Shown piece after piece: positions 4,728-16,352 of a DNA stretch of 64,000 nt (the stretch's first letter is position 1; every line of letters begins with the position of its first letter). Origin of the DNA: Sandaracinus amylolyticus (GTDB taxonomy: Bacteria; Myxococcota_A; Polyangia; Polyangiales; Sandaracinaceae); contig NZ_CP011125.1 in the NCBI RefSeq assembly GCF_000737325.1, positions 7,006,001-7,070,000 on the forward strand. Reading direction: 5' to 3'. The position numbers were made by a program, and so were the translations under genes. Under the pieces are notes generated by a model. It made no database searches and was not told the origin of the DNA. It saw only the letters and a list, made by a program, of their open reading frames with translations.

Positions 4728-4964
4728 CGGACGGCCTCCCGTTCATCGATTCGATGGAATCCCGCCCGCGGACGGCCTCCCGCTCATCGATTTGATGAAA
4801 TCCGACCCGCCGACGGCCTCCCGCTCATCGACTTGATGAAATTCGACCCGCGCACGGCCTCCCGCTCATCGATTCGATGAAATCCCACCCGCGGACGGCC
4901 CTCCCGCTCATCGGTTCGATGGAATTCCGCCCGCGAACGGCCTCCCCGCCATCGAAGAGACGAG
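4728..4964. repeat. Tandem array of 41-bp repeats with palindromic core (array 1)
   Basis: Five copies of a 41-bp unit start at 4728, 4769, 4810, 4851 and 4892 (the last is 42 bp), and a degenerate half-copy starts at 4934. Each begins CGGACGGCCTCCCGCTCATC and ends near CCCGCCCG. The core CATCGATTCGATG is an odd-length palindrome (CATCGA, T, TCGATG). Copies differ by point changes mostly outside the arms. The unit is not a multiple of three and no gene reads through, so it is non-coding. It lies in the 529-bp gap between the Omp85 gene and the DUF1592 lipoprotein. I see nothing else in the gap except a ribosome binding site just before 5161. Confidence 0.9.
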
Positions 4965-5160
4965 ATGTCGAGGGCGCATGCGCGTCCCGGCGCGCCGATG
5001 GGCTCGCGTCGGTCGCAGGAGCCCGAAATGCGCCGCGGAGAGGGTCGCGTGACCCCAGCGCGATGCACCTACACGCGTGTTTTCCGAGCCGCGATGCGTG
5101 GCACGTCCGCTGCTCTCGCCCGCGGAGCGGCGCGCGCTCTGCGCATCGCGGAGGACGAGG

Positions 5161-7737
5161 ATGGCCGTTCGCTCGAGCCCGCACGCGAGACGCCGCAACG
5201 TCGCGCCACCACGACGCGCACACGCGATCGCATCCTGGACGCTCGCGCTCGGCTGCGCGCTCGCCGGGTGCGAGGGCAACCTGTTCGACGGCCCGAGCGG
5301 TCCACGCGGCAGCTCGCGCCCCGACACGCCGAATCCGACGGTGCTGACGCCCGCGCCCGCGATGCTGCATCGGCTCACGCGCGCCGAGTACGAGCAGACG
5401 ATCCGCGATCTCTTCCCCGCGGGCACGACCGTGCCCGGCGATCTGCCGAACGACACGCTGCTGCACGGCTTCAGCACCGTCGGCGCGTCGGAGCTCACCA
5501 TCCCGCCGCTCGAGGTCGAGCAGTACGAGTCCGCGGCGAGCTCGCTCGCGACGCAGATGCTCGCCGATCCCGCGCGGCGCACGGCGTTCTTCGGCTGCGA
5601 CGTGGCGAGCGAGGGCGAGCCCTGCCTGCGCGCGTTCGTCGTGCGCTTCGGTCGGCTCGCGTGGCGTCGCGCGCTCGAGCCGAGCGAGGTCGACGCGCTG
5701 ATCGCGATCGCGACCGACACCGGCGCGATGCTGCGCGATGCGTGGCGCGGCGCGGGCTTCGCGCTGACGGCGATCCTTCAGTCGCCGCACTTCCTCTTCC
5801 GCGTCGAGCGCGGCGAGCCGGATCCCGCCGAGCGCACGCGGCTCCGCTACACGGGCTCCGAGATGGCGAGCCGACTCTCGTACTTCCTGTGGGGCAGCAC
5901 GCCGGACGAAGAGCTGCTTCGCGCCGCCGCGGCGGGCGAGCTCGTGACCGAAGAAGGCCTGCGCGCGCAGGTGACGCGCATGACGCGCGATCCGCGCGCG
6001 ACCGCTGCGATGACGCGCTTCTGGGGCGAGTTCATGCAGCTCGAGCGGCTCGACACGGTGAGCAAGGACCCCGAGCTCTTCCCGACGTTCACGCCGTCGC
6101 TGCGCGCGTCGATGCGCGCGGAGATCGACGGGATCTTCGCCGACGTCTACGAGCGCGACGCCGACGTGCGCGAGGTGTTCTCGACCGACGTGACGTTCGT
6201 CGACGCCGAGCTGGCCGCGCACTACGGGCTCCCCGCGCCGACCGGCTCCGAGCGCATGCGCGCCACGCTGCCCGCCGATCAGCACCGCGGTGGCGTGATG
6301 GGCCGCGCCGGCGTGCTCTCGATGTGGGCCCACGCGACGCTCACCTCGCCCACGTTCCGCGGCAAATTCGTGCGCGCGAACCTGCTCTGTCAGGACATCC
6401 CGCCGCCGCCGCCGGGCATCTCGACCGAGCTGCCCGAGGGCAGCGGCGAGCCCGAGACGCTGCGGCAGCGGCTCGATCGCCACCGCACCGATCCGGTCTG
6501 CGCGGGGTGCCACACGCTGATGGATCCGCTCGGGTTCACGTTCGAGCACTTCGATCCGGTCGGTCGCTTCCGCGATCTCGACAACGGCTTGCCCATCGAC
6601 GCGAGCGGTGACGTCGACGGAGTCGCGGTCGACGGCGCGGACGAGCTCGGCGCCCACCTCGCGCAGAGCGAGCGCGTCGGAGCGTGCTTCACGCGTCGGT
6701 TCTATCGCTGGGCCTCGGGCCACCTCGAGACGCGCGGCGAGCAGGTCGAGATCGAGCGCCTCGCGCGCGAGTTCGCGAGCGCGGGGCACCGCATGAGCGC
6801 GCTGATCGAGCTCGTCGTGCTCTCGCCCGGCTTCCGCTACGCGAGCTACGCGCCCGGCGACTGCGAGGACGGCGAGACGCGCGACTGCACCAACGCGTGC
6901 GGCGCGGGCACGCAAGCGTGCGAGCGCGGCGCGTGGACGGCGTGCAGCGCACCGAGCGGGACCACCGAGACCTGCAACGCGGTCGACGACGACTGCGACG
7001 GCACGACCGACGAGGGCGTCGCGCGCGCGTGCACGACCGAGTGCGGCGCGGGCGTCGAGACGTGCGTCGCGGGGTCGTTCACCGCGTGCAGCGCGCGCAC
7101 CCCGACGACCGAGAGCTGCAGCCACGCCGACGACGACTGCGACGGACGCATCGACGAGGGCTTCGCGCCGCAGTCGGTCTCGAGCACGTTCACCGCGCTG
7201 CGCGAGCACCATCCGATCTGCGACGGCGCGACCCAGCGCAGCGGCCTCGAGTGCAACGAGGCGATCCACGGGCTCTGCGGATCGGCCGCGGGCACCTGCG
7301 GATCGAGCGGCTTCGGTCCGGTCGAGAACAGCGGCGACGTCGCGCACGTCGCGTGCGTGAGCGCGACGCTGCGCACCACGACCTTCGCCGAGCTCGCGTC
7401 GCACCACGCGGGCTGCGACGGCGCGAGCGAGCGGCTCGGCATGCAGTGCAACGCCGCGATCCATCGCTACTGCGCGAGCGCCGGGCTCACGACCGGCTAC
7501 GGCCCGGTGCGCGTCGCGGGCAGCAGCGTGACGGTCGCGTGCACGCCGGGCGCGGAGACGGTCGGCACGACGTACTCGGCGCTCTCCGCGATCCACGCGG
7601 GGTGCAACGCGACGTCGCGCATCGGCCGCGACTGCAACGCGGCGATCCATCGCTTCTGCGGCTCGCGCGGCGCGGTGAGCGGATACGGGCCGCTCGAGAA
7701 CGGCGGCGACGATCTCCAGGTCGCGTGCGTGCGGTGA
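5161..7737 (+). CDS. DUF1592-family lipoprotein with c-type-heme-like motif, MopE-like motif and three C-terminal Cys repeats
   Basis: 858 aa. ATG 5161 is chosen because GGAGG lies at 5150-5154 and the product has a lipoprotein signal ending in LAGC. The body follows the order of the planctomycete/myxobacterial PSD1-type family: DUF1587 (about 60-120), DUF1595, DUF1592 (SRLSYFLWGSTPDEELL near 235-255), DUF1588 (GVLSMWAHATLTSPTFRGKF near 380) and DUF1585. A CAGCH motif near residue 446 could bind heme. After residue 560 come two DDDCDG-type MopE-like metal-binding motifs and three repeats of about 60 residues built on F/Y-xx-L-xx-H-xx-C and CN-A-IH. The DUF1552 gene follows 14 bp later, the usual partner. 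The biochemical function of these families is not established; cell-surface redox or polymer degradation has been suggested. Confidence 0.85.
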   Translation: MAVRSSPHARRRNVAPPRRAHAIASWTLALGCALAGCEGNLFDGPSGPRGSSRPDTPNPTVLTPAPAMLHRLTRAEYEQTIRDLFPAGTTVPGDLPNDTLLHGFSTVGASELTIPPLEVEQYESAASSLATQMLADPARRTAFFGCDVASEGEPCLRAFVVRFGRLAWRRALEPSEVDALIAIATDTGAMLRDAWRGAGFALTAILQSPHFLFRVERGEPDPAERTRLRYTGSEMASRLSYFLWGSTPDEELLRAAAAGELVTEEGLRAQVTRMTRDPRATAAMTRFWGEFMQLERLDTVSKDPELFPTFTPSLRASMRAEIDGIFADVYERDADVREVFSTDVTFVDAELAAHYGLPAPTGSERMRATLPADQHRGGVMGRAGVLSMWAHATLTSPTFRGKFVRANLLCQDIPPPPPGISTELPEGSGEPETLRQRLDRHRTDPVCAGCHTLMDPLGFTFEHFDPVGRFRDLDNGLPIDASGDVDGVAVDGADELGAHLAQSERVGACFTRRFYRWASGHLETRGEQVEIERLAREFASAGHRMSALIELVVLSPGFRYASYAPGDCEDGETRDCTNACGAGTQACERGAWTACSAPSGTTETCNAVDDDCDGTTDEGVARACTTECGAGVETCVAGSFTACSARTPTTESCSHADDDCDGRIDEGFAPQSVSSTFTALREHHPICDGATQRSGLECNEAIHGLCGSAAGTCGSSGFGPVENSGDVAHVACVSATLRTTTFAELASHHAGCDGASERLGMQCNAAIHRYCASAGLTTGYGPVRVAGSSVTVACTPGAETVGTTYSALSAIHAGCNATSRIGRDCNAAIHRFCGSRGAVSGYGPLENGGDDLQVACVR

Positions 7738-7751
7738 AGGGAGAGAGCGCG

Positions 7752-9140
7752 ATGAAGAAGACCAAGTCTCTCTCGAAGACCGCGATGAAGCGCCGCACGT
7801 TCCTGCGCGGCGTGCTCGCGACCGGCGCGGCGGTGAGCGTCGGCGTGCCGATCCTCGACACGATGCTCGACGAGAACGGCGTCGCGTTCGCGGGCGGCGA
7901 GCCGCTGCCCGTTCGCTTCGGCGTGTGGTTCTGGGGCAACGGGGTGCGGCCCGAGCGCTGGACGCCGAGCGGCGCCGTCGACTGGACGCCGAGCGAGGAG
8001 CTCGCGCCGCTCGCGACCGCCGGCGTGAAGCCGTGGGTGAGCGTGGTGACGGGCTGCGAGATCAAGACCGCGACGCACCCGCACCACTCGGGCATGGCCG
8101 GCATCATGACCGGCGCGCACTTCCACCAGAACGGCAACACGCGCGACACGATCGTCTCGACGTTCGCGTATCCCTCGGTCGATCAGATCGCGGCCGCGCA
8201 CTTCGAGGGCATGGCGCCGTTCCGCTCGCTGGAGTTCGGCATCACGCGCTTCCGCGGCACCGACGAGGGCACGAGCTTCCAGCACCTCTCGCACAACGGG
8301 CCGAACAACCCGAACCCGAGCGAGTACTCGCCGTCGCGCATGTACGCGCGGCTCTTCGGCGCGCCGGTCGACGCGCAGATCGATCTCGCGCGACAGAGCG
8401 TGCTCGACGCGGTGGGCCAGCAGATCCGCGCGCTCCAGCCGCGCGTGTCGCGCGCGGATCGCGTGCGCCTCGAGCAGCACTTCGACAGCGTGCGCGCGCT
8501 GGAGATGCGCCTCGCCGCGGGCGCGTCGACGTGCACGCCGCCCGAGAATCCGGGCGATTTCCCGGACGTCGGAGGTCGCGAGCCGATCGCCGATCAGAAC
8601 CGCGCGATGAGCGATCTCTGCGCGCTCGCGCTGGCGTGCGATCTCACCCGATCGTTCTCGATGTTCTTCAGCACCGCGGGCTCGGGCGTGATCATGTGGC
8701 CGGTCGGCGCGAGCAACGGCCTGCACCAGATCAACCACGACGAAGGACCGCCGCACGACACGGTGCACGCCGCGACGGTGTTCACGATGGAGCAGCTCGG
8801 GTACTTCCTCGCGCGGCTGCGCGACACGCCCGACGCGGCCGGGAGCAACGTGCTCGACAACTGCTCGATCCTCGCGACGAGCGAGCTCAGCGAGGGCTGG
8901 ACCCACAGCAACCGCGAGTTCCCGATCCTCGTGTGCGGCCGCGGCGGCGGCGCGCTGCGCGGGAACGTGCACCACCGCGTGGATCGCGAGAGCACGAGCA
9001 TCGCCGTGCTCACCGCGCTGCGCGGCGCGGGCATCCCGGCGGAGTCGTTCGGCGTCGACGAGAGCTACACGTACAACGGCTCGAGCGTGTTCAGCCCGGG
9101 CCGCGCGACGACGGCGTACGGCGAGCTGCTCGCGGGGTGA
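7752..9140 (+). CDS. DUF1552 domain protein, predicted Tat-exported
   Basis: 462 aa. ATG 7752 follows a purine-rich AAGGGAGAGAG stretch. The N-terminus carries a twin-arginine signal (KRRTFLRG, then a short hydrophobic segment), so folded export is expected. The rest is the DUF1552 domain, distantly related to sulfatase/alkaline-phosphatase-like DUF1501 proteins. It has VWFWGNGV near residue 60, HPHHSGMAGIMTG near 115 and a late ILATSELSEGWTHSN stretch whose acid/His pattern resembles metal ligation. It is co-transcribed with the DUF1592 lipoprotein upstream (14-bp gap). The pair is recurrent in Myxococcota and Planctomycetota. A perfect hairpin 50 bp after the stop probably ends this transcript. 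Confidence 0.85.
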   Translation: MKKTKSLSKTAMKRRTFLRGVLATGAAVSVGVPILDTMLDENGVAFAGGEPLPVRFGVWFWGNGVRPERWTPSGAVDWTPSEELAPLATAGVKPWVSVVTGCEIKTATHPHHSGMAGIMTGAHFHQNGNTRDTIVSTFAYPSVDQIAAAHFEGMAPFRSLEFGITRFRGTDEGTSFQHLSHNGPNNPNPSEYSPSRMYARLFGAPVDAQIDLARQSVLDAVGQQIRALQPRVSRADRVRLEQHFDSVRALEMRLAAGASTCTPPENPGDFPDVGGREPIADQNRAMSDLCALALACDLTRSFSMFFSTAGSGVIMWPVGASNGLHQINHDEGPPHDTVHAATVFTMEQLGYFLARLRDTPDAAGSNVLDNCSILATSELSEGWTHSNREFPILVCGRGGGALRGNVHHRVDRESTSIAVLTALRGAGIPAESFGVDESYTYNGSSVFSPGRATTAYGELLAG

Positions 9141-9190
9141 CCAGATCCTGATCGCGATGCGCGCCCCCGCGCGGAGCGATCGCTCCATGG

Positions 9191-9229
9191 ACGCCGCAGA
9201 ACGGCCTTTCTCGGCGCGTTCTGCGGCGT
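9191..9229 (+). terminator. GC-rich hairpin, probable terminator after the DUF1592/DUF1552 pair
   Basis: A perfect 13-bp stem, ACGCCGCAGAACG (9191-9203) with CGTTCTGCGGCGT (9217-9229), around a 13-nt loop. There is no T-tract, so it may be an intrinsic-like or Rho-assisted end. It also argues that the next gene starts downstream of it, at 9265, and not at 9157. Confidence 0.65.
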
Positions 9230-9264
9230 TCCTCGTGGCGCATCGCTTGCTCGACGACGCGCTC

Positions 9265-11292
9265 GTGCGTGCTCGCTTCCTCTGCATCCTCTCGGCGCTC
9301 GCGCTCGGCGCGTGCGGCGGTGACGTCGACAACCCACGCGGCGGCGACGGCGCGATCCCGGCGCGCGACGCGTCGGTGAGCGACGGCGGAACGCCCACCC
9401 AGGACGACGACGCCGGCACGCCGGGCTGCGAGGCAGCGCCTCCGGCACGCGCGCTCGCGTTCGACGGCACCGACGACGCCGCGTCGATGGGCGTCGCGCG
9501 TCCGCTCGGGCTCGCGCGCTTCACCGTCGAGGCGTGGGTGCGCCGCGACGGTCCGGGCGTCGCGGCGGGCACCGGCGTCGGCGGCGTGCAGGTCGTGCCG
9601 ATCGCGGGCAAGGGACGCGGCGAGGACGACGGCAGCAACGTCGACTGCAACTACGCGTTCGGCTTCGTCGGCGACGTGCTCGGCGCGGACTTCGAGGACA
9701 TGGCGACGGGCGCGAACCATCCGGTCGTCGGGCGGACGCGCGTCACGCCGGGCGAGTGGCACCACGTCGCGGTCACGTACGACGGCACCACGTGGCGCCT
9801 CTACCTCGACGGCGCGCTCGACGGCTCGGCGCGCGCGAACGCGACCCCGCGCGCCGACAGCATCCAGCACTTCGGGATCGGCACCGCGCTCGACTCGATG
9901 GGCCGCGCCGCGGGCCGCCTGCACGGCGCGGTGAGCGAGCTGCGGGTGTGGGATCGCGCGCGCACCGCGGAGGAGATCGCGAGCGCGCGCTTCGAGCGCG
10001 TCGCGACGGGCGAGGGCCTCGTCGGACGATGGGCGCTCGACGGCGACGCCGCCGACGCGATCGGCGATCTCGACGCGACGATCACCGGCGCGACGTTCGT
10101 CGAGACCGGCCCGGTGCTCGATCGCGGCCTTCCTCCGACGATCACCGGCACGATCCCGAGCGACGATCTCGCGGTCACCGGGAACAGCGTCGAGCTCAGC
10201 GTCGGCGCGACCGATCCCGAGGGCGACGCGCTCGACGTGACGTTCCACCTGCGCGCGCTCGGCGAAGAGGACGGGTTCACCGTCGTCGTGCTGCCCGACA
10301 CGCAGTACTACACGGTCGACGATCGCAACCTCGAGCGCTTCTTCTACGACCAGACGCAGTGGATCGTGGACAACCACGACGCGTACGACATCCGCGCGGT
10401 CATCCACAACGGCGACCTCGTGAACAACGGCGACTCGCAGGTCTTCCAGTGGCGCGTCGCCGACCGCGCGATGACGACGCTCGAGGGCGCGCTGCCCGGG
10501 ATGCCCGACGGAATGCCCTACGGCGTCGCGGTCGGGAACCACGACCTCAGCGTCGTCAGCCAGGTCGGTCCTGCGACCCGCTACAACGAGTTCTTCGGCG
10601 TCGAGCGCTTCGAAGGCCGCGCCTACTACGGCGGCCACTACGGCAGCACGAACGACGAGCACTGGTTCACGTTCTCCGCGGGCGGGATGGACTTCGTCGT
10701 CGTCGACATGAAGTTCGATCCCGAGCCCGACGCCGCGGTGCTCGCCTGGGCGCGACGCGTGCTCGAGACGCACCCCGATCACTTCGGCATCGTCAACGCG
10801 CACTACATCCTGAACAGCGCGGGCAACTTCGGGCCGCAGGGCCAGGCGATCTACAACGCGCTCCGCAGCGTGCGGAACCTGCACCTCATGACGTGCGGGC
10901 ACATCAGCGCGGAGAGCCGTCGCAACGACACGTTCGAGGGGCATCGCATCGACTCGATGCTCGCGGACTACCAGTCGCGCGAGAACGGCGGCAGCGGGTT
11001 CATGCGCATCTGGGAGTTCTCGCCCGCCGAGGGCGAGCTCACGGTGCGCACCTACTCGCCGACGCTCGACCGCTGGGAGACCGACGCGAACAGCGAGTTC
11101 ACGCTGCGCGTCCCGCTGCGCGGCGCGGGCGGCGTGTTCGAAGAGGTCGCGCGCGCCGAGCGCGGCGCATCTCCGGCGACGGCGACGATCGAAGGGCTCG
11201 AGCCCGGCCGCGTGTACGAGTGGTACGCGACGGTGCGCGACTGCGATCACACGGTGCGCACGCCGGTCTCGCGCTTCACGACCACGCCGTGA
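9265..11292 (+). CDS. Lipoprotein with LamG domain and calcineurin-like metallophosphoesterase domain
   Basis: 675 aa if GTG 9265 is used. That start gives a compact lipoprotein signal (FLCILSALALGAC) and avoids the hairpin at 9191-9229; the frame is open back to 9157. An Asp/Gly-rich linker follows, then a LamG/concanavalin-like domain (about 60-280; FTVEAWV, GEWHHVAVTYDGTTWRLYLDG). The metallophosphoesterase (about 340-580) shows its metal ligands in order: PDTQ, HNGDLVNNG, VGNHD, NAHYI and CGHIS. A short Fn3-like domain closes the protein. It is predicted to be a surface-anchored phosphoesterase bound to a polysaccharide or other ligand; the substrate is unknown. Its 3' end overlaps the convergent HupE gene by 17 bp. 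Confidence 0.85.
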   Translation: MRARFLCILSALALGACGGDVDNPRGGDGAIPARDASVSDGGTPTQDDDAGTPGCEAAPPARALAFDGTDDAASMGVARPLGLARFTVEAWVRRDGPGVAAGTGVGGVQVVPIAGKGRGEDDGSNVDCNYAFGFVGDVLGADFEDMATGANHPVVGRTRVTPGEWHHVAVTYDGTTWRLYLDGALDGSARANATPRADSIQHFGIGTALDSMGRAAGRLHGAVSELRVWDRARTAEEIASARFERVATGEGLVGRWALDGDAADAIGDLDATITGATFVETGPVLDRGLPPTITGTIPSDDLAVTGNSVELSVGATDPEGDALDVTFHLRALGEEDGFTVVVLPDTQYYTVDDRNLERFFYDQTQWIVDNHDAYDIRAVIHNGDLVNNGDSQVFQWRVADRAMTTLEGALPGMPDGMPYGVAVGNHDLSVVSQVGPATRYNEFFGVERFEGRAYYGGHYGSTNDEHWFTFSAGGMDFVVVDMKFDPEPDAAVLAWARRVLETHPDHFGIVNAHYILNSAGNFGPQGQAIYNALRSVRNLHLMTCGHISAESRRNDTFEGHRIDSMLADYQSRENGGSGFMRIWEFSPAEGELTVRTYSPTLDRWETDANSEFTLRVPLRGAGGVFEEVARAERGASPATATIEGLEPGRVYEWYATVRDCDHTVRTPVSRFTTTP

Positions 11293-12229
11293 GCACGATC
11301 GCGAGCGTGCGATCGACGAGCCACATCGCGCCGAGCGCGCCCAGCGCGTAGCAAGCGAGCGGACGCGCCCGCGCGACGACTCGCTCGTCGCGCACGACCG
11401 TTCGGCCGATTCCGACCAGCAGGAAGACGAGCGCGACCAGCGCGAGCTGCCCGAGCTCCACGCCGACGTTGAACGCCGCGAGCGCGCCCACGAGGCCGCG
11501 CTCGGGCAGTCCGACCTCGCGCAGCGCGCCCGCGAACCCGAGGCCGTGCACGAGCCCGAAGAGCAGCGCGACGAGCCACGGCCAGCGCCGCGACAGCGTC
11601 GCGCGATCGTGCAGCGCCTCGCGCGCGACGAGCACGACGCTCCCGGCGATGGTCGCCTCCACCGGCGCCGAGGGCAGGCGCAGCACGTCGAGCGCCGCGA
11701 GCGCGAGCGTGATCGAGTGCGCGATCGTGAACGCGGTGATTGTGATCACGATGCGCCGCTCGAAGCCGACGAGCAGCACGAGCCCGAGCACGAACGCGAC
11801 GTGGTCGAGCCCGAACGCGATGTGCTCGACGCCGATCGCGATCCACCGCGACCACGACGGGTCCCGCGCGAGCCTCACGCGCGGCTCGGCGCCCGTCGCG
11901 ATCGCCTCGAGGTGCTCGCCGTCGTGCGTGCGCAGCGTGACCACCACGCGCGTTCGCGGATCGAGCGGGCCCTCGATCGCGATCTCGCCCGCCTCGAGCG
12001 CGCCGGGCTCGCACGCGAGGCGCGCGCCGTTCGCGTCGCACCCCGGGGGATACACGACGCGCAGCGATCCGTCGGGTGTGCGCGCGTCGACCGGTGCCGT
12101 CCACGCGACCGCGAAGTCACCGGGCGCGCGCTCGGCGATCGCGAGCACGCCGGGGCTCGAGTCGTGCGCACGAGCGCGCGCCGTGATCGCGATCACGATC
12201 GCCGCGACGCACCACGCGCGCACCGTCAT
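11276..12229 (-). CDS. HupE/UreJ family membrane protein
   Basis: 317 aa. A cleavable signal (AIVIAITARARA) leads to a beta-rich periplasmic domain of about 120 residues, then about six membrane helices. The family motif GVEHIAFGLDHVAFVLGL (HxxxGxDHxxF) lies at the first helix pair, and FGLVHGLGFAGAL in a later one supplies more His residues. Members are thought to be metal (Ni or other) permeases or accessory proteins of metalloenzymes. No hydrogenase or urease gene is nearby, so the substrate is open. ATG 12229 overlaps the stop of the upstream isomerase gene by four bases (ATGA), so the two are translationally coupled. The 3' end overlaps the convergent phosphoesterase gene. Confidence 0.82.
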   Translation of the reverse strand: MTVRAWCVAAIVIAITARARAHDSSPGVLAIAERAPGDFAVAWTAPVDARTPDGSLRVVYPPGCDANGARLACEPGALEAGEIAIEGPLDPRTRVVVTLRTHDGEHLEAIATGAEPRVRLARDPSWSRWIAIGVEHIAFGLDHVAFVLGLVLLVGFERRIVITITAFTIAHSITLALAALDVLRLPSAPVEATIAGSVVLVAREALHDRATLSRRWPWLVALLFGLVHGLGFAGALREVGLPERGLVGALAAFNVGVELGQLALVALVFLLVGIGRTVVRDERVVARARPLACYALGALGAMWLVDRTLAIVLTAWS

Positions 12230-13038
12230 CGCACCACCACGTCCCAGCGCTCGCGCAGCCGTGCGAGCTCGCGCGCGCGCGCCTCGATCGTGCGCTGCTC
12301 GCGCAGATCGTGGAGCACGTCCTCGCGCGCCGCCTCGAAGTCCGCCTCGCTCGCCGCGCTCCGCGCGTCGACGCGCACGACGTGCCACCCGAAGCGCGAC
12401 GGCAGGAGCGCCCACGCGCCCTGCTCCATCGATTCGACCCCACGCGCGAGCTCCGCGCCGAAGATCTCCTCGAGCTGCGCGATCGTGCGCCCACGATAGC
12501 GGCGCCCACCGGAGAACGTGTCGCCGAGCCCGCTCGGCGACGCGCCCGCGATCACCTGCGCGAGCAGCGCCTCGGCGCGCGCCCGCGCGTCCTCGTGCTC
12601 GCTCGAGACGAACACCTGCGTGAAGTCGATGCGCGCCTCGTGCGCCCACTGCTCGCGATGCGCGGCGAAGTGCGCGCGCAGCTCGTCCTCGGTGGGCTCG
12701 CTCGCGAGCGCCTGAGCGTCGAGCACGTATCCCATGCTCGACGCGAGCCGTGAGCGGACCTGCGGATCGTCGCGATCGAGGCCGCGCTCGAGCGCCTCGC
12801 GGTAGAGGATCTCGTCGTCGATCCAGCGCGCCACGAGCGCCTCGAGCTCGGCCTGCGAGGGAGGCGCGCCGTGCGCGTGCTCCCACGCGTCGGCGAGCTC
12901 GGCGCGCACGCCCTCGTCGACCACGATCGAGCGCTCGCGCGTGTCCTCCGCGGCCCCGCCCGCCAGCGCGCGATCGAGCGCGAGCAGCGCCATCCCGAGC
13001 ACGACGAAGTGCAGCAGCGGCTCGCGGAGCCAGGACAT
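12226..13038 (-). CDS. Membrane-anchored parvulin-type peptidyl-prolyl isomerase
   Basis: 270 aa. ATG 13038 (MSWLREPLLHFVVLG) begins a single N-terminal membrane anchor. The next part is a SurA/PpiD-like helical region (YREALERGLDRDDPQVRSRL near 100). It is followed by a rotamase-like domain with DTFSGGRRYRGRT and QGAWALLPSRFGWHVVRV, the conserved parvulin C-terminal strand, and a charged helical tail. It probably assists folding of exported proteins, perhaps the periplasmic domain of HupE, with which it is coupled by an ATGA overlap. The same isomerase-HupE pairing is common in other proteobacteria. A frame extension to 13092 exists but would put residues ahead of the anchor. Confidence 0.8.
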   Translation of the reverse strand: MSWLREPLLHFVVLGMALLALDRALAGGAAEDTRERSIVVDEGVRAELADAWEHAHGAPPSQAELEALVARWIDDEILYREALERGLDRDDPQVRSRLASSMGYVLDAQALASEPTEDELRAHFAAHREQWAHEARIDFTQVFVSSEHEDARARAEALLAQVIAGASPSGLGDTFSGGRRYRGRTIAQLEEIFGAELARGVESMEQGAWALLPSRFGWHVVRVDARSAASEADFEAAREDVLHDLREQRTIEARARELARLRERWDVVVR

Positions 13039-13130
13039 CGCCGCGAGAGTGCCACGTTCCGCGGATGGCCCGGTGTTTGACACGCGCGGCACGGTCCCTA
13101 GACTCGGCGGCCCGAGAGGAAAAAGCCCCG

Positions 13131-13334
13131 ATGGCGTACAAGGACTTCCTGATCGACAAGCGCATCCTCCAGCGGAACATCGACAAGGGGCTCGTCGACG
13201 CGAAGCAGTACGACAAGCTGCTCACGTCGCTGCCCGACCGCGCCGACAACGCCGCGACCGCGGCCGTCGAGGACGAGCTCACCGACGTCGACGACATCGA
13301 CGAGGGTGAGGACGACGAGGACGAAGAGGGCTGA
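13131..13334 (+). CDS. Small acidic-tailed protein of unknown function
   Basis: 67 aa. ATG 13131 has GAGAGGA at 13114-13120. The N-terminal 45 residues are basic/amphipathic and probably helical (KDFLIDKRILQRNIDKGLV), and the last 20 are almost all Asp/Glu. No family is recognised. It lies 30 bp before a DUF1844 gene and in the same direction as clpB. The three genes are probably one transcript starting in the 92-bp divergent gap with the isomerase gene. The strong ribosome binding site and third-position GC support a real gene. Confidence 0.75.
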   Translation: MAYKDFLIDKRILQRNIDKGLVDAKQYDKLLTSLPDRADNAATAAVEDELTDVDDIDEGEDDEDEEG

Positions 13335-13364
13335 GGAGCGCGCACGCGCGAGGCCGGGGGAACC

Positions 13365-13679
13365 ATGTCGAACGACGACGATCGCGACATCGACGAGACC
13401 GGCCTCGCCCCGCTCCCGGGCGCCGAGGCCACGGCGCCGATCGACTTCACGACGTTCATCCTGTCGATGAGCACGTCGTGCATGATCCAGCTCGGTGAGA
13501 TCCGCGACCCCGAGGGTCGCACCGCGATCGACCTCGAGTCGGCGCGGCACACGATCGAGATCCTGCAGATGCTCGACCGCAAGACCGAGGGAAACCTCAG
13601 CGGCGAGGAAGATCGGATGCTCGCCCACGTCATCGCGGATCTCCGCGAGCGCTACCTGGCGAAGCACCGCGGACGCTGA
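13365..13679 (+). CDS. DUF1844 domain protein
   Basis: 104 aa. ATG 13365 follows a GGGGGAA ribosome binding site. After an acidic 20-residue lead come the DUF1844 features: FTTFILSMSTSCMIQLGEI, a helix with DLESARHTIEILQML, and KTEGNLSGEED before a basic tail. Members are small cytosolic proteins, usually about 100 aa, of unknown role. Its position between a small acidic protein and a ClpB-like ATPase is the only hint of function here. Confidence 0.85.
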   Translation: MSNDDDRDIDETGLAPLPGAEATAPIDFTTFILSMSTSCMIQLGEIRDPEGRTAIDLESARHTIEILQMLDRKTEGNLSGEEDRMLAHVIADLRERYLAKHRGR

Positions 13680-13718
13680 GGAACAGAGCCGCGAGGGCCG
13701 TTGTATGCTCTCGCCCTC

Positions 13719-16352
13719 ATGTCGACGCTCACCCTCCGCCTCGAGGCCTACGACCGTGATGCGCGTGCCGTCATCGCCGCCGCGCAAGGCCTCGCCGACG
13801 AGCGCAAGAACCCCGAGGTGGAGCCGCTCCACCTGCTCTATCGGCTGATCGAGCGCAGCGAGCCCGTGCAGCAGGCCATTCGTCGCGCCGGGGTCGACCC
13901 GGTCGACGTGCTGGTCGAGAGCGAGGCGCAGCTCCGCCGGCTCACGAAGGTCGAGGGCGCGGTCGCGTACCTCTCTCCGCGCATGCTCGAGCTGCTCGGG
14001 CGCGCCGAGGGCGAAGCGGCGCGCGGCGGCGGCGTGCCGGTCGACGTGATGCACCTGCTGATCGCGTGCTCGCAGGACACCACCGCGGCGGTGAGCGGCG
14101 TGCTCAAGGCGTGCGGGCTCTCGGGGCCGGTGCTGCGCGCGACCGCGTCGGGCGAGACGCTGCAGCCGGCGACCGCGACCAACGGCCAGAGCGGCGCGTC
14201 GCGACCCGCGTCGAGCGGCGGCAAGGGCGACCCGCTCGAGCAGTACGGGCGCGACCTCACGCGGCTCGCGCGCGAAGGCAAGTTCGATCCCGTGATCGGC
14301 CGCGACGGAGAGCTGCGACGCATCCTGCAGGTGCTCGCGCGGCGCCACGAGAACAACCCGCTGCTCGTCGGCGAGGCGGGCATCGGCAAGAGCGCGATCG
14401 TGAACGCGCTCGCGATGCGCATCGTGCGCGGAGACGTGCCCGCGACGCTGCAGGGCAAGCGCCTGATCGCGCTGGAGACCGGCGCGCTGCTCGCGGGCGC
14501 GAAGCTGCGCGGCGAGGCCGAGGAGCGGATGAAGGCGCTGCTCGCCGCGATCCGCGATCGCGCGGGCGAGATCATCCTGTTCATCCCGGATCTCGGCGCG
14601 CTCGCGGGCGATCGCGCGCCGAGCGGCGCGGGCCAGCTGCTCTCGACCGCGCTCGGGCGCGGCGAGCTGAAGGTGATCGGGCTCGCGACGACCGACGGGA
14701 TGCGCAAGGCGTTCGAGGCGGACCCCACGCTCTCGCGACGCTTCGTCGCGATCGCGATCGATCCGCCGACCGCCGACGAGACCATCGCGATCCTTCGCGG
14801 CGTGGTGCCGCGCTACGAGCAGGCGCACGGCGTGCGCATCGCCGATCCCGCGCTGCTCACCGCGGTGCGCCTCGCGCGTCGCTACGTGCCGGGCGCGCAG
14901 CTTCCGAAGGCCGCGATCGATCTGATCGACGAGGCCGCGGCGCGCGTGCGCGTGGAGATCGACGGCGTGCCTGCGGAGCTCGACGCGCTCGAGCGTCGGC
15001 TCGAGGCGCTCGAGATGCAGGCGCACTCGCTCGAGGACGACGTCGACGACGAGAGCAAGCGCCACAAGGCGCGCATCGACGCGGAGATCGCGCAGCTGCG
15101 CCCGAAGGCGAGCGACGGGCGCGCGCGCTGGGCCGCCGCGCTCGCGCGCACGAAGGAGGTGCGCGGCATCGAGCAGGAGCTCGAGGCGACGCGCAAGCAG
15201 TACGAGGACGCGAAGAGCTCGGGCGATCACGCGAAGGCGGGCGAGCTGCGCTTCGGCACGCTCCCGCTGCTCGAGAAGAAGCTCGAGGACGCGCGCGCAC
15301 GCGCCGGTGCGATCGCGGGCGGCGGCGACAACGAGCCGCGGGTGCGCGATCAGGTCGTCGAGGCGGACGTGGCCGACGTGGTCGCGGCGTGGACCGGCGT
15401 GCCGGTGTCGCGGATGCTCGAGGCCGAGACCGTCAAGCTGCTCAGCATGGAGGACAAGCTCCGCGAGCGCGTGGTCGGCCAGGATCCCGCGGTCGCCGCG
15501 GTCGCGAAGGCGGTGCGTCGTGGTCGCGTCGGGCTGCGCGATCCCAAGCGCCCGATCGGCAGCTTCTTGTTCCTCGGTCCGACCGGCGTCGGCAAGACCG
15601 AGCTCGCGAAGGCGCTCGCCGAGTTCCTCTTCGACGACGAGCTCTCGCTCACGCGCCTCGACATGAGCGAGTTCATGGAGAAGCACATGGTGGCGCGCCT
15701 GCTCGGCTCGCCGCCCGGCTACGTCGACAGCGAAGAGGGCGGCTTCCTCACCGAGGCGGTGCGCAAGCGGCCCTACTCCGTGATCCTCTTCGACGAGATG
15801 GAGAAGGCGCACCCCGACGTCTTCAACATCCTGCTGCAGGTGCTCGACGACGGTCGCCTCACGGACTCGCGCGGTCGGCTCGCGTACTTCGCGGACACCG
15901 TGATCATCATGACGAGCAACGTGGGCTCGCAGGCGATCCTCGATCACGGCGAGGGCGTCACGCGCGAGGCGATCCGCGAGACGCTCGACGCGCAGCTGCG
16001 CAAGCACTTCCGCCCCGAGTTCCTGAACCGCATCGACGACGTCGTGATCTTCGATCCGCTCGGCAAGCACGAGCTGCGCGGCATCGTCGAGATCCAGCTG
16101 CGCGGACTGCAGAAGCTCGTCCAGGATCGCCGGCTCACGCTGAACGTGACCGACGCCGCGAAGGATCGCCTGACCGAGCTCGGCCACGAGCCCGCGTTCG
16201 GCGCGCGCCCGCTCAAGCGCGTGATCCTGAAGAACCTGCAGGACCCGCTCGCGGAGGAGATCCTGCGCGGCGGCTACCAGCCCGGCGACACGATCGAGAT
16301 CGACGCGAAGGACGGCGCGTTCGTGTTCCACCGCCTGCCCGCGACGACCTGA
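13719..16352 (+). CDS. clpB: Divergent ClpB-type AAA+ disaggregase paralogue
   Basis: 877 aa, full ClpB architecture: Clp_N double repeat (1-145), NBD1, a coiled-coil middle domain (about 410-530) and NBD2. The ATG at 13719 is preferred to the TTG at 13701. NBD2 keeps Walker A (GPTGVGKT, 620-627) and Walker B (ILFDE, D692/E693). NBD1 keeps Walker A (GEAGIGKS, 218-225), but where ClpB has ILFIDE it reads ILFIPD (P290, D291). The substrate-gripping tyrosines are also replaced: pore loop 1 KYRG is KLRG (L263) and pore loop 2 GYVGYEEGG is GYVDSEEGG (D670, S671). ClpB normally extracts polypeptides from aggregates with DnaK. This copy probably has altered ATPase and threading behaviour and is likely not the only ClpB in the genome. 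The 3' end faces a minus-strand gene six bases away. Confidence 0.88.
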   Translation: MSTLTLRLEAYDRDARAVIAAAQGLADERKNPEVEPLHLLYRLIERSEPVQQAIRRAGVDPVDVLVESEAQLRRLTKVEGAVAYLSPRMLELLGRAEGEAARGGGVPVDVMHLLIACSQDTTAAVSGVLKACGLSGPVLRATASGETLQPATATNGQSGASRPASSGGKGDPLEQYGRDLTRLAREGKFDPVIGRDGELRRILQVLARRHENNPLLVGEAGIGKSAIVNALAMRIVRGDVPATLQGKRLIALETGALLAGAKLRGEAEERMKALLAAIRDRAGEIILFIPDLGALAGDRAPSGAGQLLSTALGRGELKVIGLATTDGMRKAFEADPTLSRRFVAIAIDPPTADETIAILRGVVPRYEQAHGVRIADPALLTAVRLARRYVPGAQLPKAAIDLIDEAAARVRVEIDGVPAELDALERRLEALEMQAHSLEDDVDDESKRHKARIDAEIAQLRPKASDGRARWAAALARTKEVRGIEQELEATRKQYEDAKSSGDHAKAGELRFGTLPLLEKKLEDARARAGAIAGGGDNEPRVRDQVVEADVADVVAAWTGVPVSRMLEAETVKLLSMEDKLRERVVGQDPAVAAVAKAVRRGRVGLRDPKRPIGSFLFLGPTGVGKTELAKALAEFLFDDELSLTRLDMSEFMEKHMVARLLGSPPGYVDSEEGGFLTEAVRKRPYSVILFDEMEKAHPDVFNILLQVLDDGRLTDSRGRLAYFADTVIIMTSNVGSQAILDHGEGVTREAIRETLDAQLRKHFRPEFLNRIDDVVIFDPLGKHELRGIVEIQLRGLQKLVQDRRLTLNVTDAAKDRLTELGHEPAFGARPLKRVILKNLQDPLAEEILRGGYQPGDTIEIDAKDGAFVFHRLPATT

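Follow-up and report, generated by a model that had tools for sequence, protein, structure and literature searches.

A ClpB paralogue of the Polyangiales with a degenerate first ATPase ring and a strictly conserved second ring

The 64,000-nucleotide stretch of the Sandaracinus amylolyticus genome analysed here (the window; G000:C1:7006001-7070000, on a single 10,327,335-bp contig) encodes a ClpB-family protein, P0001, which departs from ordinary ClpB at catalytic positions of NBD1 and in the pore loops of both rings. The question raised by this locus is what such a protein can still do. The original prediction saw in it a specialised or non-threading ClpB relative that had lost the NBD1 Walker B acids and both pore-loop tyrosines in a coordinated way. 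The features of the locus are collected in Table 1.

Table 1. Features of the paralogue locus; positions are those of the window and residue numbers those of P0001 unless E. coli ClpB is named.
Feature	Position	Strand	Basis or remark
DUF1844 (PF08899) small protein	13365..13679	+	21-39 bp upstream of the paralogue, depending on the start codon
ClpB-family paralogue P0001, 877 aa	13719..16352	+	ORF, profile and alignment
NBD1 Walker A region GEAGIGKSA, residues 218-226	14370..14396	+	Lys and Ser retained in the Sandaracinus protein
NBD1 pore loop KLRG, L263 at the E. coli Y251 position	14502..14513	+	alignment to E. coli ClpB
NBD1 Walker B IILFIPD, residues 285-291; P290 and D291 at the E. coli D278 and E279 positions	14571..14591	+	alignment
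M domain with its coiled coil in the Sandaracinus protein; residues 414-544, approximate limits	14958..15350	+	alignment, predicted model
NBD2 pore loop GYVDSEEGG, residues 667-675; Tyr retained, G-Y changed to D-S (D670, S671)	15717..15743	+	alignment
NBD2 Walker B acids FDE, residues 691-693	15789..15797	+	D and E intact in 85/85

The reading frame of P0001 begins with an ATG at 13719, and an in-frame TTG is found at 13701. The protein could be aligned over its whole length with the ClpB of T. thermophilus (1qvr, 8e-233) and with that of E. coli, and Pfam, the alignment and a predicted model agree on the architecture N, NBD1, coiled-coil M domain, NBD2 and D2-small. The predicted monomer (mean pLDDT 87.0, pTM 0.62) contains a complete NBD1 AAA+ fold and the PDB entries that it matches best are ClpC, Hsp104 and ClpB. 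With the ClpB equivalog profile TIGR03346 the protein reached 985.8 bits, which is below the curated cut-off of 1232.1. The search for a canonical ClpB elsewhere in the genome, which had been proposed together with the original prediction, gave a copy at C1:8889058 (1368 bits to the same profile, 48% identity to P0001), thus P0001 is not the sole ClpB of its genome. A ClpV-like protein is encoded at C1:6888959 (L057), with the pore loop GASVKGEFE, and three adjoining ORFs with Clp-type AAA+ matches (1167, 1220 and 798 aa) are located at G000:C1:5659077-5667675. In the literature searched, the coverage of which was partial, no paper was found that describes a comparable ClpB paralogue.

Orthologues of 52-98% identity were detected in the 38 related genomes searched, and they separate from the canonical copies, which stand at 45-50%. 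Among 377 genomes from the phylum, 54 matched the DNA pattern of the GY[VA]DS pore loop (54/71 in the own order, 0/306 elsewhere), so the suggested conservation in myxobacteria holds within the order Polyangiales and does not extend to myxobacteria in general. A scan over 84,980 species returned at least 117 loci, nearly all from Polyangiales among the matches listed; Sandaracinus, Sorangium, Polyangium, Byssovorax and Labilithrix are among the genera that carry the paralogue. In a tree computed with the trait columns left out, the 85 paralogue rows were placed on a single branch with an SH-aLRT of 100, together with ClpB, and a duplication within the order's own canonical ClpB was not rejected by the AU test (p 0.195). 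The majority of the paralogue-bearing genomes have a canonical ClpB as well; in the draft genome G030 (380 contigs) the paralogue was found and canonical ClpB was not, and in G011 a second ClpB is present, broken by a contig end. The paralogue was not found in some small-genome members of the order, e.g. G012 and G020, the completeness of which is 100%. A further deep ClpB-like lineage with intact motifs, which belongs neither to canonical ClpB nor to the paralogue, occurs in two genomes from this order (L053, L054). Since the substitutions are common to relatives across the order, chance or sequencing error could be ruled out as their source, and the view of P0001 as a specialised, conserved ClpB relative is upheld.

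For the site counts 85 clade members were set against 18 canonical ClpB sequences from the same order. At E. coli position 251 the clade has Leu in 83 members, with one Ala and one Val, versus Tyr in 10 and Phe in 8 of the canonical copies, which confirms the predicted replacement of KYRG by KLRG. A DNA-pattern scan for KLRG, in which YTN also reads Phe, gave a single KLRG (L297) among the 30 loci read, the others being KFRG. The NBD1 Walker B pair DE is found in 18/18 canonical copies versus 3/85 clade members (the two deep members L022 and L034, plus L104), and 29 different dipeptides occur in the clade, SS, RG, PN, LG and similar pairs among them. In P0001 itself only one of the two Walker B acids reported as lost is really gone: the position of D278 is occupied by Pro, and at E279 the acid is shortened to Asp and not removed. 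The Walker A Lys is Lys in 66 and Arg in 19 of the 85 members; from the Arg pair the interface R331 is kept in 78/85 and the Arg finger R332 in 55/85, being lost in 30/85. Since the Sandaracinus protein has GKS in Walker A, the two Arg fingers and, where E. coli has Glu279, an Asp, its NBD1 may still bind ATP and may hydrolyse it slowly. The pore-loop changes of both rings are fixed in the clade, whereas the decay of Walker B is ragged; they look like separate events, and the idea of a coordinated loss does not quite hold.

In the NBD2 of P0001 the sensors and the Arg finger are intact, and so are Walker A (GPTGVGKT) and Walker B (LFDE), the latter two in agreement with the original prediction, which had also described the full-length M domain correctly. 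Each of the residues K611, T612, D677, E678, N719, R756 and R815 (E. coli numbering) is present in 85/85 clade members. The reported loss of the NBD2 pore tyrosine was based on the wrong residue: in E. coli ClpB the GYVGYEE motif begins at residue 652, so Tyr653, which forms the substrate clamp together with V654 (PMC6546751), is the first Tyr of the motif. Its equivalent, Y668, is retained in P0001 and is a Tyr in 84 of the 85 members (Phe in one), and it is the neighbouring pair that has changed, G655D and Y656S being found in 85/85 clade members versus 0/18 canonical copies. This fixed G-Y to D-S change beside the tyrosine is the best candidate for an altered substrate grip or preference. 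GYVDS as a sign of a dead NBD2 was ruled out, since Hsp100 proteins of cyanobacteria, actinobacteria, acidobacteria and Bacteroidota carry the same motif while their catalysis is intact. In the cyanobacterial L133, L180, L196 and L203 GYVDSEKGG stands together with KYRG. A ClpB-type protein of Nostoc sp. WHI (L189, NZ_WBKM01000208.1), outside the clade and with intact Walker motifs, combines KLRG with GYVDSERGG, and this pairing is convergent.

The M domain, the element which couples the ClpB motor to DnaK according to the literature cited in PMC6593972, is not present in every member of the clade. In 10 loci it is cut to 0-13 aligned residues, a linker of 15-24 residues replacing the approx. 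130-residue domain. These are a seven-member clade (including the chromosome-level records L119 and L173), L106 with L156, and L138, and parsimony on the tree requires at least 3 changes. The predicted monomer of one of them (L153, mean pLDDT 80.9) contains both AAA+ domains. The repeated loss of a DnaK-coupling element argues that at least the M-less members do not use this control.

The divergence of the paralogue relative to the canonical copy was calculated from 11 genomes carrying both (55 pairs). The ratio was 2.79 for NBD1 and 2.97 for the NBD1 small domain, versus 1.15 for NBD2, 0.95 for D2-small, 1.02 for N and 1.31 for M; NBD1 identity in the same genomes was 0.515 for the paralogue versus 0.826 for canonical ClpB. 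Since NBD2, D2-small and N evolve near the canonical rate, the change has affected only NBD1 and, to a lesser degree, M. The dN/dS of P0001 against L010 (0.044 in NBD1, 0.015 in NBD2) corresponds to purifying selection and rules out a pseudogene. From the 17 residues fixed in the clade and not in the canonical copies, 12 are within NBD2.

In the clade the Walker B acids are lost while the Arg at the interface is retained and so, for the most part, is the Lys of Walker A, the pattern expected of a structural, non-hydrolysing ring. ClpB with a mutated NBD1 Walker B is still able to assemble with ATP, and the main role of the first Arg in the pair is to hold the interface (PMC4239642). In E. coli ClpB the main threading motor is NBD2, Y653 is essential and Y251A is partly active (PMC6593972). 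In Pex1/Pex6 a catalytically dead, ATP-bound D1 ring lies over an active D2 ring (PMC10518020). From these data taken together we infer, with a probability of roughly 0.68, that the protein is an order-specific ClpB paralogue in which NBD1 has become a non-hydrolysing structural ring and NBD2 the sole ATP-driven threading motor; it would then probably be driven by a single motor where ordinary ClpB has two. NBD1 would have ceased to hydrolyse ATP, might still bind it and would help hexamer assembly, and threading would be carried out by the NBD2 loop with the Tyr653 equivalent. Docking of DnaK at the M domain would be less necessary, and the substrates would form a set unlike that of ordinary disaggregation, as proposed from the retention of a canonical ClpB beside the paralogue. 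In E. coli ClpB disaggregation drops strongly when the Walker B of NBD1 is mutated, so a dead NBD1 would need compensating changes; derepression can partly offset NBD1 defects there (PMC6593972).

The alternatives were weighed against the same data. A non-threading remodeller or holdase, its pore grip gone in both rings, as the original prediction had it, would fit the clade-wide loss of the NBD1 pore tyrosine and the two changed residues beside the NBD2 tyrosine. However, the ring that is the main threading motor in E. coli is complete and strongly conserved here, with its gripping Tyr in all members except one and all seven catalytic residues invariant, and since Hsp100 proteins whose Walker motifs are intact, ClpB-type ones of cyanobacteria among them, also contain GYVDS, this motif alone does not indicate lost threading; we consider this reading very unlikely. 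Equally improbable is an ordinary but slow two-motor ClpB, in which NBD1 of the Sandaracinus protein would work with D291 in place of Glu. The intact GKS and Arg pair speak for it, but the Walker B Asp of the same protein is a Pro, and relatives with SS, RG, PN or LG pairs and with Arg for the Walker A Lys indicate that the clade can do without catalysis by NBD1.

The paralogue could also be an accessory subunit that forms mixed hexamers with canonical ClpB and tunes it by an ATP-bound, non-hydrolysing NBD1. The co-occurrence of the two copies in most genomes is consistent with this, and Walker B-dead subunits do raise the ATP hydrolysis of the active ones in mixtures with wild-type E. coli ClpB (PMC6593972). 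Nevertheless, NBD1, the assembly ring, falls to about half identity within the clade, the two Sandaracinus proteins are less than half identical, the strict conservation of NBD2 suggests a motor of its own, the M domain is wholly lost in some members, and no canonical copy was found in the draft G030; this arrangement thus has little chance of being the correct one.

The single-motor protein shares with ClpB/Hsp104 the layout of N, NBD1, M, NBD2 and D2-small and a complete NBD2 with the Tyr653 equivalent, and it differs from them by the loss of the NBD1 Walker B and pore Tyr, by GYVDS in NBD2, and by an M domain that is dispensable in three lineages. With P-D in its NBD1 Walker B, P0001 lacks the two complete Walker A/B pairs of the TIGR03346 equivalog; it has the domain order of the wider ClpB/Hsp104 family, although M is missing from 10 other clade members, which share a ClpA-like layout with ClpA/ClpC. 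In the aligned stretch between NBD2 sensor 1 and the Arg finger, TSNVGSQAILDHGEGVTREAIRETLDAQLRKHFRPEF, no ClpP-docking IGL/IGF loop was seen by eye, as in ClpB/Hsp104, and for this reason the paralogue probably releases unfolded protein and does not degrade it. An NBD1 pore loop without Tyr is known from ClpV/TssH, but the ClpV-like copy of the genome retains its NBD1 Walker B (IDE), and P0001 reached 679.4 bits with TIGR03345, under the cut-off of 884.95. Pex1/Pex6, the AAA+ motor of eukaryotic peroxisomes, also consists of two stacked rings, the first catalytically dead and the second an active threading motor (PMC10518020). It is a heterohexamer from another AAA+ branch with other N domains and substrates, therefore the likeness is a mechanistic analogy and not membership; by this analogy the best explanation is an arrangement like that of Pex1/Pex6 which arose inside the ClpB family.

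The neighbouring DUF1844 gene has a single copy in the Sandaracinus genome. It lies close upstream of the paralogue in about 20 distinct genomes, the M-less clade included, but not on much of the Polyangiaceae side, so the predicted conservation of this neighbourhood is true for the present locus and for only a part of the clade. DUF1844 is present in 49/59 genomes of the class, mostly outside the order, where the paralogue signature was not found. As a strict rule, an obligate partnership was ruled out by this, and with a gene so widespread in the class linkage is no proof of partnership. In about 30 genomes the paralogue is followed on the same strand by a gene for a Mur ligase that resembles Mpl most, with scores of 322-356 bits that stay under the cut-off of 388.7; examples are L218:11355-12830 (+), L210:11405-12847 (+) and L213:10725-12350 (+), and the distance is sometimes 4-13 bp. 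No such gene was found beside the paralogue in the window, where the other neighbours are a DUF1552 (HXXSHH) protein (6684-9140), a LamG and metallophosphoesterase protein (9157-11292) and, on the minus strand, a 785-aa HupE/UreJ-domain protein (11276-13633). No secretion family, which would have pointed to the type VI secretion context of ClpV/TssH, occurred among the scanned neighbours.

ClpB copies near DUF1844 were also met in two genomes that belong to the class but not to the order. In L257 (genome G393; 4729-7407, minus strand, overlapping the DUF1844 frame at 7377-7793, minus strand) Y251 is Leu (KLRG) with Walker B DE and GYVG intact, and in L259 all checked motifs are intact. L257 is a possible transitional form by its motifs. 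The two join the paralogue clade with an SH-aLRT of only 80, and the AU tests reject neither placement of L257 (p 0.456 with the paralogues, 0.462 with the rest), thus they were not upheld as settled sisters. If the placement is confirmed, they would be the stem of the clade, with Y251L as the first change. A series can be tentatively drawn, possible though rather doubtful, from all motifs intact (L259) through Leu in the NBD1 pore only (L257), next the change of both pores and after it the loss of NBD1 catalysis, to loss of M, which would yield a DnaK-independent unfoldase with a dedicated substrate. If true, it would be an ordered natural route from a two-motor Hsp100 to a single-motor machine.

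The paralogue is a genuine and conserved feature, in which NBD2 had been over-read by the original prediction. The roles of each ring in double-ring Hsp100 proteins have so far been studied mostly with engineered mutants. The clade is a natural experiment in which NBD1 has probably been inactivated and M repeatedly deleted while NBD2 has stayed fully constrained. It bears on the changes that let NBD2 run alone, and on the use of such a machine beside a retained normal ClpB, and its M-less members make it possible to test if docking to Hsp70 is required in any case.
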